A DNA stretch of 64,000 nucleotides from Polytrichum commune (taxonomy: Eukaryota; Streptophyta; Polytrichopsida; Polytrichales; Polytrichaceae), in NCBI GenBank assembly GCA_950295325.1, contig OX485804.1, positions 15,934,001 to 15,998,000 on the forward strand, written 5' to 3'. Positions 7,195-27,230 of the stretch are shown here, piece by piece (the stretch's first letter is position 1; every line of letters begins with the position of its first letter). Under the pieces are notes generated by a model, which saw only the letters and a list, made by a program, of their open reading frames with translations, ran no database searches and was not told the origin of the DNA. The translations under genes and the position numbers were made by a program.

Positions 7195-7552
7195 TCAGTG
7201 CCCTCTCCCAATTTCACGAAAATCGTTGAATCCATGGAGTTTCTGTAGCTTTCCTCCAATTTGGAGTGCAAATGGGGGATTTGCACAGCTGATTTCTGCC
7301 TGCTGCAACAAAAAAATTTGCATTGCCGAAACAGGTTCAGCAAAGCCGAGCCTCCGCATCTGTTGAAGAAGAAATTTGGCTGAGAATTTGAGCTAAGGCA
7401 GAGGAGCTGATAAATTTTGAGCTATCCAGAGGAAGCTTTGGGAATTTCGACGTTGCGGTTGTAGCATAAAGGCAGGCTGAGAGGCCTATACATGTGGTAG
7501 GAATCCTCTTCCGTCCAAGAATTTTTATCTGCAAAGGGTCGAGGGTTTAAGG

Positions 7553-10500
7553 ATGGCGATGGTGCACACTGCAAGGTGTGCATCCACACAGATGCGAGCT
7601 CTGTGCCATGACCACTTCCAACAAGGTCTCTCATCATCGAGACCATCGGTGCACATTCGCATTACTTCTCTCCCGAAATTTCTCAAATTCAGTGCACGGG
7701 CGCAGGGGTTAGTGCCTTCGAGTGGCATCACTCGGTGCATATTTTTGGGAAAGCATGCAAAAACTTCCTCATGCTCAAGTTGGGAGCCATGGAGGGCTGG
7801 CTTCAGGGCCCGGCGGATGTGTGTTGCAGCGGCAGCAGCTCAGCCCCCAGAAGGCTCGGCGCAAACATTCAGGGAGGAGGACTATGAGGAGAAAGAAGAG
7901 ACCGAGGAAGAAGCACGGACACGCAATTGGGTAGAAAGAGGGTACGAGTTCATATGCTCAACTCTTGATGATGTTATTTATTAAAATGCTCTCTCTTAAG
8001 CTTCATGGTCTCTTTTGTGGGAATGTCAAGAACTAATGGTCTTTTAAGCCCAAATAAAGCACGTGTCTCGAATAAAGTAAGCTCTTGGCCTCGCCTTAGG
8101 GGTTTTGTAGTCTCCTTGTGTCGAAATTGAGGTCTTAGTGCACATGCTATACATCAATTTGATTGAGTCTTCGCGTTACATCTGGAGATTAGTAGCAGAA
8201 ATGCTGTGTTTAAAGCTTCAAGAACCTAAAAGTCTTTGTTGTGGCGATGGTCTTTTAGCCGAAATAGGTAGTTTGCCTAAATATATTAAACCTTTGGCTT
8301 TTGAATTCCTACTTCAGGGTTCTGTTCTATCTCTTCTGGTTTCCTTGTGTCCAAATTGAGTTCTTAGCACACATGCTATACAAAATCTGCTTGAGTGTTC
8401 CCGTTACCTACAGAGATGTGTCATAAAATCAAGACAAGGATCCACTGTCGTCGAAGGTGGCTTCTTCTATGCAGATTAACTGTTGTGTTTGGCTATTGCT
8501 GTGTGTGCGCTCACGTGTGTGTGTGTTTTTGTGTTTGTGTTTTAACTCCGTTCTAATTTCTGATTGCTTGGTATTGAGCATGTAACTGTACAAGCTTTGG
8601 TTTAACTACCTCTCTTGAGTTTTATTTTATAATTTACTGGTACCTTTATCTGTATGTGCTTATGTTTGAGCATTGGTACCCACAAGGATATCTTCTGTGT
8701 AAATGTCACATAGCATGAATATGTTAATTCTAATTGTCTTGACATTGCTCTTTAAATTATTGGTAGAAGAGGTGAAAGTAGTTTTAGAATGTTCAATGTT
8801 TCTTTAGCTTTATTGGCGGTTGACAAGAAGGCGATGGGTGTACAAAATCATCACATTGCACTGTGCAGTCCCTCAACCTGTGTATATCGATTGTAAGGCC
8901 GACTTGCTGTGCAGACTGCTATCAACTGGAAGTCATAAACGTGATTTAAGGTCAAGATAGTAGAGAGCTATTGTTGAGATGGTGCAAAACCTTGAGACTG
9001 AAGGAAATTGCTCTCCAATGTTGCATATATATGTATGTTAGTCTTCATCACTGATATAGTAGAGTCTGGCTCAATCTTGCTATGTTCTTCCGCATCAAAT
9101 GGTCATGATTAATATGAGTAAATTCGAAATTCTTAGGCTTTGTCAATGTGGCTTGGAAAGCGGTCCTCAATCAGTTCAATTTTTTCACAAAAGGGGAAGA
9201 CCGATATGTAAATTCATCCTGTGGTAGGATTCTGTCAGGGTCTTACTTTCTAATCAGCTCTGCATTGCAGTGCAGTTTCTTAAATGGTGAGGGAAAAAGT
9301 CTTTTAGACTTGTTTAAAGTCAGAATATATGTATTGTGTAGGATTTGAGCAATCTCTAGTGTCTTGTAAGTCTGATCTATACACTTTGTAAGCACTAGAT
9401 ATTGAGAGGTACCAACGTGAGCTGGTTGCACCCAATGGCCATTATCTGATGTAATTCCCATCAGGAAGAGATTATGCACATCATTGAGAGCTTTCTAGAC
9501 AATCTGTTTGGACCATACGAATATTTTTGAGTGAGGTGGATGTCCTAGAGTATGTGGTTCGGTCTAGAAAGTCTCCAGTTCCATTTTGTGGGAGTTCTAT
9601 TTGTATTCACATTTACAGTTTCTTCTCTAGCATTTGAATTTGAAGAAGTCATGCACATCATGTAGAACTTTGTAGACAAACTGTTAGATCCCATGACTTT
9701 TTTGAGTGAGGTGGATGTGTTTGAGTGTGTGCTTCAGCCTAAGAAAGTTCAGATGGAGGATAGAATCTCTTCTTGATGGTAAAAAGTGATTTTTGAATGT
9801 TGTGAACAGGTGGGCTCCATGGGAGGAGAACTTGTCGCCAGAAGCAGAATTTGCAGTTGAGAGTCTTGCCCCCGGGGAAGAGGAGCCAGTGGTTTCATGG
9901 GAATCGTATGAGAAACTAAACCCAAAGTGGCAGAAACAACGGATGAAGACATTGCAGGAGGAGGAAGAAAGGAAGGAGAAGGAAAAGGTTAAACCAAATC
10001 TCGAGGGAAGCTTGTGGGACCAACCACTTGTGTTCACTTTGATACCGCCCCGAGACTGGCCCCCTCCTGGATGGCACGTTGATCCCAAGGAGCTTGCTTA
10101 CATCCGTGAATCACAGGCTCTTGAAGATTTTGTTGCCACTCCTGAAGTCTTGGCAGCTGCTGAGAAAGAGGAGATGGATGAAGAAAAGTTTGATCCAGAT
10201 TTCCCTAGGTGGAAAATGTTCTTGAACCAGTATATTGAGTGGGTTGCAGCTAATAGAGACCGACTTGATGAGGAATCACAAGAGGTTGGTGTAAAATTTT
10301 CAAGAACTTTATTTTGATTATCATGATTGGAATCTATTACTTAATACAGTCTAATTTCTAGAGGTCCTGATGTTTGTGGAAGGGATGATGATGAGGGGTG
10401 CATTTTCTTGTTGAGGTAATAAGAGGTCTCTCAAACTTTGGAACAATGGCAACATTTTCTCACACCTTTTAGATGAGGTGCATGAGATTGTATAAAAAGA

Positions 10501-22137: not shown

Positions 22138-23372
22138 TAAAGTCTGAGCACACTCAGGCATCACAGGCAACGAATTAGCCGACGAACTCGCAAATGAAGG
22201 GACAACCCAAGAAAAACCAACAAGCACCCCACACATCCACATTGCCCATCCGACCCCATATTAGCTAGCCAACTGTCCAACAGCCACACACGACGGCGCC
22301 ATCCGCAACCTATGCACATTCATATCAAAAGAACATGGAAACCAAGAAAAAACCTTTGCCAAAACTAAATTTCCATACGTAGACAAATGGTTATCAAACA
22401 CCCAGATAAATCAGAAACTCTCTAACCACTTTTGGCATAATGACAAAATACCAGATATCCAAATCACCCAAACACTAAAATTTTGATATGCCCAATATAT
22501 GGGCAACCACGGGAAAAACATATTTTGGCCCCTCACACACCAAAACCCCAACTGCACACTATGTCATAGGAACGAATGAGACACGTGGCCCCACTTACTA
22601 TCTACATGCGAACACCCATACCTAAAAGGTCTTAGAATCGCAAGACGTAACAAAGCAGTACACCTTATCACCCAGACACTACAAGCCAATAAAAACACCA
22701 GATTCCTTACCATGGTCAATGCAGGTCATCTCAACAATCGCCTACAAGAACAAACCGTACCAGACTAGCTACTACGATGCATATGCCATCAACAACCATG
22801 CCAATGTCAAGCTAAACTTAGACCCGACATCCTATGCATGATTGGAGCCCCCAACCATATAACACTTCCTATATCGCCATCACCTAACCACACAGTACAA
22901 TTCATTGAATTCACATATTGCCACAACAGATTCCTTGAACAAGCCATTTCACAAAAACACGCCAAATATGACCCACTAAATAACACCATCCAGAATAATG
23001 GCTGGAAAACCAACCCCATCATAACAATCACGGCAGGAGTAAGAGGAGCCATACATGAACACTCCATTCAAAAACTCATAGAATTAAAAATCCCAAAATC
23101 AAACATCAAAAAACTCATGAAAGGCATACACCAAAACGCCATTAAATTTCTCACCTATTTAGTATTAAACAAACGAAAACTAGACAACAAACAGACACCG
23201 GTCCCCCACCATAACAACAACGGACTACTAGTGACCCATCAGAGCCCACCTCCCCAAAGGAAGCATAAAACCATATACTGCATCATGGAATACCGTGATC
23301 AGTATAAGGCCAACGGGCTCGAAGTCATGCCGGTATGCCAGTACGGGCGTTATTTTTTCTTTTTTTCTTTTC
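22138..23372 (+). mobile_element. 5'-truncated LINE (non-LTR retrotransposon) remnant
   Basis: Reading in three frames across breaks, the left end encodes the last part of an RNase H domain (AHSGITGNELADELANEG). Next comes a cysteine/histidine zinc-binding segment (CTLCHRNE and HLLSTCEHPYLKG) and then a long C-terminal part (open at 22838-23398). In-frame stops (for example TGA in AAAGTCTGAGCA and TAG near 22260) show it is dead. The fragment starts inside the RNase H domain, the usual 5' truncation left by target-primed reverse transcription. It ends in a pyrimidine-rich tract (23350-23372) rather than poly(A). The 96-bp direct repeats on both sides are the target duplication. Confidence 0.8.
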
Positions 23373-23468
23373 TACTCGTAGATCATCACAAACACTGATG
23401 TGAACAGCATATCTTTATTCCACAACTTTACATGCAAGTTTATTTCATTCAGAGCAGGGTTACATCCA
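23373..23468. repeat. 96-bp direct repeat, right copy
   Basis: Partner of 22042-22137. On the minus strand it contains two AATAAA hexamers and is likely the original 3' end region of the catalase transcript. Confidence 0.85.
23414..23444 (-). terminator. candidate polyadenylation signals of the catalase gene
   Basis: Two TTTATT hexamers on the plus strand (23414-23419 and 23439-23444) read AATAAA on the minus strand, about 445-475 bases past the catalase stop codon. The same pair is duplicated beyond the LINE at about 22080-22116. Confidence 0.45.
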
Positions 23469-23887: not shown

Positions 23888-26800
23888 CTAAGCAACCATG
23901 GTGTATGGATCTTCCGATTTCTTCTTCATGTCCAGCATCTCTTCCACCTTGTCAGCCAAGGAAGGATCGCATTTGCGGAATATACCCAATTGTCGCTGGA
24001 TAATAAAATCCTTAGCACCTTGGATGTGGCCCGCAATATTTTTAGCCGTCTGCTCCTGATCTTCCTCTGACATATTTTGCCACAACATTTTTGGCTGTAC
24101 GTAATCATCTTGCTCAGACCACTTGCGGGGAGGTGCCCTCGAGACAATACCACCTTCATGCCTGTTCAATATCACCAAGTACATAATAACCACAAAATTT
24201 GTCAAGCATTTTCCTAATGAGAAAAACAAAAACAAAAACATCATGGATTTCTTCCAAATTGATCCAAGTATATGAGCTACAATCATAGCCGAAAGAGCTA
24301 AAAAATTTCCTCTCAACGACCTAACCCTTGTGGTTTACAGAACATAGTACTTACTTGTAAGGGTGCACGTCGGGCTCTGAAGAGTCTGGCCGTGGCAAAT
24401 CCTCAAAAGAGTTCGGGTAGTAGTTTGGCTTACTACCGCCATTGTCGGTAACATTCATCATCCCATCACGAGCATATGTTTGCACCTTCGCAAATGGACA
24501 TTGGTTGATAGGAATCTGCCAACAACACAAACAGATTACAAGTAGCAGTGAGATTTTACCATGTATCAGATTTCGCTACTACCATGAATGCTAGTAAACA
24601 TCCACAATAAATGGTTTGAACATTCCCAGCTCACTAAACCTTCGATACTGCAGATAAATTGCCATGTACCAAAAATTAGTATTACCAGGAATGGCATTGC
24701 GCATGCACATTTCATGATACAAAAACACTTCCGCTAATTTGTGTCACTAAAAATCATCATTACGCTTTCACAACACATAGTATGCAAATCATCAGCTAAT
24801 TTGTCTCACTAAACTTTCGATTTTGCAAATAACTTCGACACCATCCCTTGCTGTGTACCAAATATCGTTTCTACCATGAATGGCATTGGAATTTCATCTC
24901 AAAAAGTGAAGGAAACTGAAAACAGTTTACCTGCAAGTAATTTGCTCCTAAACGGTGTCGGCCAGCATCATCGTAAGAGTAAAGTCGAGCTTGAAGCACA
25001 CGGTCAGGTGAAGCTTCAATTCCAGGAACCATGTGTGCAGGTGAGAAAGAAGCTTGCTCCACCTCCGCAAAGTAATTGGTTGGATTTCTATCGAATTTCA
25101 GCTTACCAACTTCCCGCAGAGGATAATCCTTGTGCGACCAGACCTTGGTCAAATCGAATGGGTCAAACTTGTACGAGGCTGCGTCTTCGAGAGGCATAAC
25201 CTGCACTTTAAATGTCCATGAGGGGCCATTTCCATTCTGAATGTTCTGGAACAGGTCTTCAGTAGAGTAATCTGGGTTAATCCCCGCAAGCTCCACAGCA
25301 CGCTCATGGGTGAGGTTCTTGATCCCTTGGTCACTGATGAAATGGAACTTCACCCAGTGGGCTTTACCTTCCTTGTTAACCCATTTGAATGTGTGCGACC
25401 CATAACCATGCATGTGGCGATGACCATCAGGAACTCCTCTTGGTGAAAATGTGATCAACACCTGCGGCAGAGGATCATAATCTGTTACATATATTTCCTA
25501 TAGTAAATAGAGGTGGAAAATTTTCTTAAATAATGGCGCCAATTTCTGGGGCTGCCAAATCTCCATTTACAGCATGCTTGGCATTAAGAAATGGCACCAT
25601 CACACTTTAAGCACAGATTTAAGCGCTTCTTCTACAAATTCAACCGCTGATGACATCTGCAAGTAAAGCTAATTCCCGAGTGCAACGATTCAGAAACCAT
25701 GCTAGTAATTTCCTGTAGAATGTTTTAAATAAAAGTTTCTTTGAAAGTGGTGCCGATTTTCTATGGTTTTCCAAATTCCAGTCACCAGCTATTTGAGTCC
25801 CATACTATTTGAGCACAGATTTGAACAATTCTAATACATATTCAACAGCAGATGACATCGGCAAGTGGAACTAATCGATTACCTGGTGCAAGGATTCGGG
25901 GACCAAGCTGAGAAAATCCCAGAAAGCATTAGGATCCTTCATGTGTGTCTGTGGGTTACGTTTCTGTGAGTGAATGAGGTCAGGGAATTTCATTGCGTCG
26001 CGAACGAAGAACACTGGTGTGTTGTTGCCCACCATGTCCCAATTTCCTTCTTCCGTGTAAAATTTGATTGAAAATCCACGCGGGTCCCGAGCTGTGTCCG
26101 GGAAGCCAGATTCACCTGTCACAGTAGACCATCGCCCGAAAACTTGCGTCTTCTTGCCAACTTCGCTTAAGAATTTGGCCTTGCACAAGTCGGTCACATC
26201 CCTGCACATCACAGACGGATGGATACACATAAACATCAACTTTCCTTCCTTTGCTTGTTCATCCCTTTCATCGCAAGAATCACTGTGGCGGATCCGTTTT
26301 TGATATCGTTGTTCTCCATGTAGAAATTCCACTTCGACACAAAAAAAATAATGAGAATAATAGTAATAATAGTAATAAAGAAGTATTCATAAAGGTGGAT
26401 TTGCCAAATTGTTGGGGAAGCACTTACTGTGTGACTTCGAAGTAACCATGAGCTCCGGCACCCTTTGCATGCACGACGCGCTCTGGGACTCGCTCCCGGT
26501 TGAAGTGGGCCTGCTTATCGAAAAAGTGCAGATCTTCAAAGCTTATTGACCCACTCTCCCCGATTGTCAGACTGCAAGCCACGGTTAATCATATCATTAG
26601 ATTTTCCATGCCACACACACGTAGCAAACACATGCAGAAACATCCAAGTAAGAAAAACAACACCGCTCTTATAGTTTGCAGTAGTCCACGCACAATCCTG
26701 GACAAGAAAGCATGTGTCCATCAAACCATTTGTGATGGTTCAAACGATTCCTCACACTCCTGCACTCCCCGCTCTACCCCTTCTTTCAAAACATCTTCAC

Positions 26801-27230
26801 ACATAATGTGCATCGACATCCTCGAATTCATCACATCCAAACACATCAGGTATAGACACTTTTGTTTACTTCCTATGAATCTTGTTAAATTCTGTTTTTT
26901 CTCCTTTCTTCCTTTCCTTCACCTGTTATTGTCATCGGAGACCGGATGACCAGCCAAAGTGGTGTACAAAGGCTCCCCGCTGTGTCCCAGGCGCGGCTCG
27001 GGGTCATCAGCACCGGCGGTTCTCCCATTCCCATTGCCTGACCCTAAATTGAAGATGCCATGTCTCACGTTCTGCAGGAATCCTGGCGCCATAGCTGCTG
27101 GCAACTTAACCCTCGCACCTCGAAAACTCGAACTGAGCTGAGCTGATGAAATGTTTGAAGAACCCTTCCTACAAGGTGAGCCAACTGTAGCAACTCCACA
27201 GCTCTGCAAAGATGCAACTGCGTATGCCAT
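23888..27230 (-). CDS. CAT: monofunctional heme catalase, clade-3 type, with plastid-like presequence
   Basis: Six exons (26923-27230, 26428-26571, 25883-26201, 24931-25461, 24355-24515, 23888-24161) give 578 residues, all phases matching. It converts hydrogen peroxide to water and oxygen. The distal His is in RVVHAKG (His137), the distal Asn in VGNNTP (Asn210), and the heme-ligand Tyr in [14 protein letters not shown] (Tyr420). [34 protein letters not shown] and PGIEASPD are hallmarks of clade-3 (animal, fungal, bacterial) catalases. Ordinary plant clade-1 enzymes read differently at these sites (for example QDYRHMEG and NKNIDNFF). The first ~95 residues are an extension rich in S, A, G and R with almost no acids at the start, as in plastid transit peptides. 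The C-terminus (YTMVA) has no SKL-type peroxisomal signal. The usual THD after the distal site reads TQD at an exon junction. Confidence 0.92.
24560..24910. repeat. internal repeats in catalase intron 4
   Basis: Related segments recur: TACCATGAATG at about 24580 and 24873; GTACCAAAAATTAG and GTACCAAATATCG; and CACTAAACCTTCGAT with CACTAAACTTTCGATTTTGC. They suggest two or three old tandem copies of roughly 110-130 bp. Confidence 0.4.
25530..25920. repeat. partial tandem duplication of catalase exon 3 end and intron
   Basis: The segment near 25530-25715 matches 25741-25920 (GGCGCCAATTTCTGG with GGTGCCGATTTTCTATGG; CAGATTTAAGCGCTTC with CAGATTTGAACAATTC; GATGACATCTGCAAG with GATGACATCGGCAAG). 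The second copy runs into the last bases of exon 3. In the first copy the splice donor reads TCGGGAATT instead of CAGGTAATC, so it is dead. Confidence 0.6.

Follow-up and report, generated by a model that had tools for sequence, protein, structure and literature searches.

Genomic setting and structure of the catalase gene

The window, a stretch of 64 kb of Polytrichum commune DNA, contains on its minus strand a gene predicted to encode a clade-3 catalase of 578 amino acids, with the ATG at 27230 and the stop codon ending at 23888 (Table 1). The six exons are separated by five introns of 351, 226, 421, 415 and 193 bases, all with GT..AG junctions, which confirms the boundaries 23888-27230 and the number of introns given in an earlier note on this DNA. 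Searches of the product against Pfam revealed a Catalase domain at residues 90-472 (E value of 7e-189) and a Catalase-rel domain at residues 504-564. The TATAAAA motif upstream of the gene occurs in 13 of the 1278 bins of 100 bases into which both strands of the window were divided. No ATG lies between this TATA box and M1, which is thus the first ATG after it.

Table 1. Positions of the catalase gene features in the window.
Feature	Position	Strand	Remarks
TATA box TATAAAA	27387..27393	-	first base 163 bases before M1
Exon 1	26923..27230	-	extension and first core residues
N-terminal extension, residues 1-87	26970..27230	-	transit-peptide-like; composition compared with same-genome controls
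Second in-frame ATG (M47)	27090..27092	-	candidate alternative start; G at -3, G at +4
Exon 2	26428..26571	-	carries distal His137
Exon 3	25883..26201	-	carries Asn210 and a 10-residue block
Exon 4	24931..25461	-	Arg265 and His367 (NADPH site), haem ligand Tyr420, 16-residue block
Exon 5	24355..24515	-	gene model
Exon 6	23888..24161	-	Catalase-rel domain; C-terminus ...DPYTMVA, without PTS1 pattern

The genome assembly comprises 408 Mb in 64 contigs, with ∼406 Mb in contigs C1 to C7 (77.9, 70.3, 59.2, 59.1, 52.9, 44.7 and 42.1 Mb), and the catalase gene lies 16 Mb inside the 70.3-Mb contig C2. The 18 matches to the Pfam Catalase domain in the genome represent at least five genes: the window gene and its paralog L019 on contig C3, both of clade 3, and L020, L021 and L022 of clade 1. 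Among these catalases, only the window gene and L019 reached the Catalase-rel domain at an E value of 0.001. The paralog (G000:C3:24535000-24541000) has five exon junctions in common with the window gene at the protein level, plus one inside the core. Its reading frame has a stop codon just upstream of the core start, indicating that a further 5' exon is needed. Enumeration of ATG and donor combinations with a lowered donor threshold returned four candidates for this first exon, of at least 31 bases, none of which was convincing.

Two other parts of the window, both on the plus strand, were noted. An open frame of 209 amino acids without a Pfam match is located 3' of the catalase gene at 22769-23398, in a region of strong GC skew. 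The region 7481-10317 contains exons with a long presequence-like start, also without a Pfam match, which we take to resemble a plastid transcription-complex protein of the PAP8/pTAC6 type.

Catalytic, haem and NADPH residues

Alignment to reference catalases revealed the distal residues His137, Asn210 and Ser176, the proximal residues Tyr420 and Arg416, and the propionate-binding residues Arg134, Arg174 and Arg427, in agreement with the claim of the earlier note that all catalytic residues are present. The clade-3 blocks named there as diagnostic were also found in the product, with 18 residues of the blocks and PGIEASPD. The residue rules described for clade 3 in a review call for a small residue at position 217, Arg203 and His/Gln305 (PMC9687031), and the window gene follows them with Ser279, Arg265 and His367, respectively. 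By the same rules, Ser279 predicts the clade-3 (His-III) orientation of the haem, and Arg265 together with His367 predicts binding of NADPH. Two further substitutions were found in this site. At the position of Lys237 the window gene has Ile299, and only one of the 82 rows of prokaryotic clade-3 catalases has Ile there; at that of Asn213 it has His275, with His found in 18 of the 82. The first of these may weaken NADPH binding, and the sequence at both positions speaks against full NADPH binding of the mammalian type.

An unusual substitution was identified near the haem-ligand Tyr, where Gly424 in exon 4 and the equivalent residue of L019 occupy the position of human His362. Both plant clade-3 genes therefore have Gly in place of the His/Gln of the haem-ligand signature, a replacement found in none of the 96 other rows (0/82 prokaryotic clade-3, 0/8 clade-1 comprising three own and five bacterial sequences, and 0/6 clade-2).

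Clade assignment and origin

A quick tree of 60 rows was drawn from 100 sequences with SH-aLRT support as the only measure; human catalase was the one animal row, the remainder being prokaryotic rows and the catalases of this genome. The window gene and L019 formed a pair with support of 100, and a further branch, likewise supported at 100, placed this pair with the clade-3 rows. L020, L021 and L022 grouped with five bacterial rows (support of 95), which we take to be clade 1, beside the set of rows to which E. coli HPII and CatE belong. Forcing the five catalases of the genome together cost 97 log units and was rejected with an AU p of 6.35e-06, and membership of the window gene in clade 1 was rejected accordingly. 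The assignment to clade 3 put forward in the earlier note was thus borne out, and the deduced sequence identifies the product as a clade-3 monofunctional haem catalase.

The window gene product was 75.5% identical to L019 (372/493), 60.3% to human catalase (246/408) and 56.0% (270/482) to L023, which ranked first among the prokaryotic loci listed. Identity to the own clade-1 catalases was 44.5-45.9%; these belong to the same superfamily and have the same catalytic residues, but carry Val rather than Ser at position 217. One relative with 47% identity was found in viral contigs and was left out of the comparison. Among the best 60 of 95 PDB matches, vertebrate catalases came first with E values of about 1e-174, followed by 1si8 (2.5e-165); lower scores were obtained for 2j2m (4.4e-128) and for HPII of E. 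coli (about 1e-106). We take 2j2m to be a clade-1 enzyme, and the clades of the other PDB entries are likewise assumed. The human (1f4j) and bovine (8cat) enzymes, the best matches within these 60, share the residues of the NADPH rule with the window gene, which differs from human catalase in the N-terminal extension of ∼87 residues, in having no PTS1 pattern, and in having Gly424 for His362 and Ile299 for Lys237.

The closest outside row in the tree was human catalase with a support of 91, below the threshold of 95 at which branches were starred. With this support, and with human, prokaryotic and own catalases as the rows, the tree is compatible with either an animal or a bacterial closest relative, and the gene may be a bacterial gift or an old eukaryotic gene.

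Clade-3 catalases are common in bacteria, and one contig of the assembly (C19) looks bacterial, observations that could suggest bacterial contamination or a very recent horizontal transfer. The window gene has five GT-AG introns and lies 16 Mb inside its contig, however, and its paralog with the same five junctions at the protein level is on another contig. Furthermore, of at least 590 confirmed prokaryotic relatives 80 loci were retained, and identity to these did not exceed 56%. An origin by contamination or very recent transfer is therefore exceedingly improbable; contamination is ruled out by the introns, the position in the contig and the paralog. These results, together with the tree, uphold the view of the earlier note that this is a nuclear gene of the plant. 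Contig C19 itself (G000:C19:7145-7408, L135) contains an uninterrupted ORF with a twin-arginine-like start and an adjoining ORF, presumably encoding a superoxide dismutase and an isomerase-like protein, and presumably represents bacterial contamination of the assembly.

The N-terminal extension

The alignment to the catalase core starts at residue 88 and the Pfam domain at residue 90, which leaves an extension of ∼87 residues. The earlier note had described an extension of ∼95 residues in an exon of its own; the extension is present, although shorter, and exon 1 continues into the core, of which it covers the first ∼15-19 residues. Residues 1-74 contain no Asp or Glu and seven Arg or Lys, and residues 1-20 are without charge. 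Presequences from the same genome served as controls: three RbcS proteins and one thylakoid ascorbate peroxidase (tAPX) for the plastid, and one MnSOD for mitochondria. LHC genes were left out because exon 1 was not recovered. Fourteen LHC matches of equal score lie in one stretch (G000:C5:1751760-1846160), and the RbcS matches are likewise grouped, at several places in the genome. Together with the summed length of C1 to C7 and the one-intron tAPX gene, these arrays suggest a moss.

The first 20 residues are uncharged in all four plastid controls, as in the extension, whereas those of MnSOD include two Arg or Lys. On two other measures the fit is poorer. The extension contains 18% Ser/Thr, whereas the plastid controls have 25-31%, and its helical moment of 0.45 falls between those of the plastid controls (0.12-0.31) and of MnSOD (0.57). 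An extension beyond the core, few acidic residues and an uncharged start were taken as the mark of a plastid protein, and all are found in the window gene. A stretch of 11 residues presumably resembles common transit-peptide blocks.

ATG-initiated frames of 74 codons without Asp or Glu were found in 5 of 111 open frames in the window, the catalase gene included, so the lack of acidic residues alone is suggestive of a transit peptide and is not proof. In 20000 composition shuffles, the frame was open in 2.4% and was both open and free of Asp and Glu in 0.01%. Extensions of this length are uncommon among prokaryotic relatives of clade 3: of 80 rows, 77 have their nearest Met no further than 30 residues before the core and three have none, and in six of the 80 the frame stays open upstream over more than 60 residues. 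A search of the genome for relatives of the presequence, in which three candidates were scored, returned only the gene itself to an E value of 10.

The C-terminus showed no PTS1 pattern, and residues 1-120 showed no PTS2 pattern. The remark in the earlier note that the C-terminus lacks SKL therefore holds insofar as there is no PTS1 pattern; it is not diagnostic of a location outside the peroxisome, because plant catalases are reported to rely on a PTS1 of non-canonical type (PMC6137984).

Ascorbate peroxidases and peroxiredoxins

The genome was searched for ascorbate peroxidases (APX) with the pea enzyme as the query and then with the own tAPX. A single gene of the chloroplast type was detected, L150 (G000:C1:19634800-19638200), with the reservation that genes in assembly gaps may be missed. 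It has one intron, and the hydrophobic C-terminal segment is encoded in the same (last) exon as the catalytic C-terminus; thus the membrane anchor cannot be removed by skipping a separate last exon. The 15 matches to the pea query correspond to seven places, L150, L151, L152, L153 and L154-L156. L151 and L153 are closer to the pea cytosolic enzyme, and L152 (on C4) is a copy of L153 (on C1) in which a stop interrupts an exon and residues 1-81 are unmatched in the stretch examined. L154-L156 are presumably class III-like peroxidases. Three further weak matches on C2, with 39% identity, were obtained with the own tAPX query.

The structure of L150 matches the situation published for Physcomitrella, in which the only chloroplast APX is bound to the thylakoid, its gene having one splice site, and stromal APX is lacking, described as a possible limit on protection of the chloroplast (PMC3095285). 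The same paper offers multiplication of peroxiredoxins as a substitute for stromal APX, and mentions catalase twice, neither time in relation to a catalase of plant plastids. A catalase in the stroma would fit the gap left by the undetected stromal APX. Three matches to the peroxiredoxin family PF10417 were found in the genome, suggesting that removal of peroxide from the stroma does not need catalase and that a plastid catalase would be an addition rather than the only stromal defence.

Location of the protein

The results favor, with modest confidence, a clade-3 catalase whose precursor carries a cleavable chloroplast transit peptide and which works in the stroma. This reading is based on the gene structure, the clade, the catalytic residues, the lack of PTS1 and PTS2 patterns, a largely transit-like composition and the detection of one chloroplast-type APX, which is membrane-anchored. 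Translation would start at M1, and the nuclear-encoded precursor would be imported into the chloroplast with cleavage of a transit peptide of ∼75-85 residues. The mature catalase would assemble in the stroma as a haem tetramer and convert H2O2 to water and oxygen with no reductant spent, an activity that would complement the thylakoid-bound APX, given that no stromal APX was found for this plastid. The plastid presequence claimed in the earlier note is thus plausible and in part like the controls from the same genome, but it remains putative; the second in-frame start at M47 leaves room for mitochondrial or dual targeting.

The M47 form soon enters an amphipathic stretch and could be mitochondrial. 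It might be the principal product, or leaky scanning might yield it alongside a plastid form from M1. The start context is stronger at M47 (G at -3 and at +4) than at M1 (C at -3), a 14-mer near M47 is among the two with the highest moment in the extension (0.45), and the M47 form has its first basic residue at position 10, the same place as in MnSOD. Against a mitochondrial form, this moment is below the 0.57 of MnSOD, and four Asp or Glu are present in the first 40 residues, the first at 29, compared with two in 41, the first at 36, in MnSOD. A precedent is provided by RPOTmp1/2 of Physcomitrella, in which the first AUG yields the plastid product and the second the mitochondrial product; it cuts both ways, since with the native 5'UTR translation from the first (plastid) AUG is reported to be repressed (PMC3895441). 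On balance, such a use of M47 is considered unlikely. A signal directing the protein from M1 to mitochondria alone is very unlikely: the helical moment of 0.45 is above those of the four plastid controls, but the first 20 residues contain no Arg or Lys, unlike those of MnSOD.

The extension might also be no working signal, with the protein cytosolic or else peroxisomal by a non-canonical or piggyback route. The non-canonical PTS1 of plant catalases would allow the latter, and typical catalases are generally predicted to be peroxisomal in a study that has P. patens, M. polymorpha and K. nitens among its species (PMC7730656). That L019 has no resolvable presequence exon and that the Ser/Thr content of the presequence is below the plastid controls point in the same direction. 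These considerations are countered by the lack of both PTS patterns, the position of M1 as the first ATG after the TATA box, and the rarity among shuffles of a frame both open and free of acidic residues for 74 residues, such that a cytosolic or peroxisomal location is doubtful, rather more so than the use of M47. Also counting against the plastid reading, catalase goes unmentioned in the main text of a paper on the Physcomitrella N-terminome (PMC11450134).

Relation to known catalases and significance

Pan et al. (2022, PMC9158360) reported clade-3 catalases, their group alpha, in Klebsormidium, Physcomitrella, Marchantia and Selaginella and proposed transfer from bacteria. The earlier note had treated a clade-3 catalase in a plant as unexpected, a view that is not supported because the group was already reported in bryophytes, Selaginella and Klebsormidium. 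The window gene is similar to these in being a plant gene of clade 3 that, as in some of those species, is present beside clade-1 genes. A review from the same year still describes Viridiplantae as lacking catalases of clade 3 (PMC9687031). The lengths published by Pan et al., 503-651 amino acids for K. flaccidum (all group alpha) and 329-601 for both groups in bryophytes, lycophytes and ferns, would leave room for extensions. The targeting of group alpha is not discussed in the main text, which contains no instance of the word plastid and one of chloroplast, in a background remark that catalases in general have been detected there. Thus the new part is the apparent plastid-type presequence, the clade-3 type being already known in bryophytes. 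No report of plastid targeting of plant clade-3 catalases was found among the papers listed in the literature searches.

Catalases have been directed to chloroplasts artificially, with a bacterial enzyme in tobacco (Shikanai 1998, as cited) and with GhCAT1 in cotton, where stress tolerance of the transgenics was raised (PMC3545958). In both, a transit peptide was placed on a catalase; those constructs are artificial, whereas the putative arrangement here appears natural. A Brassica napus gene is named 'chloroplast-localized catalase' in a qPCR study (PMC6307994). It is likewise a plant catalase labelled chloroplastic, known from the label with neither sequence, clade nor localisation evidence attached, and it counts against novelty in the wider sense.

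If the targeting label of the window gene works, peroxide within the chloroplast would be broken down by this enzyme, a task usually credited to others. We propose tentatively that in a lineage without stromal APX the stroma may be protected by a reductant-free catalase of the animal type and, if M47 is also used, that the same gene may supply mitochondria through the start codon chosen. A catalase naturally present in the stroma would work independently of ascorbate and thioredoxin, would have the same design as that engineered in tobacco and cotton, and would help to explain how plastids without stromal APX cope.
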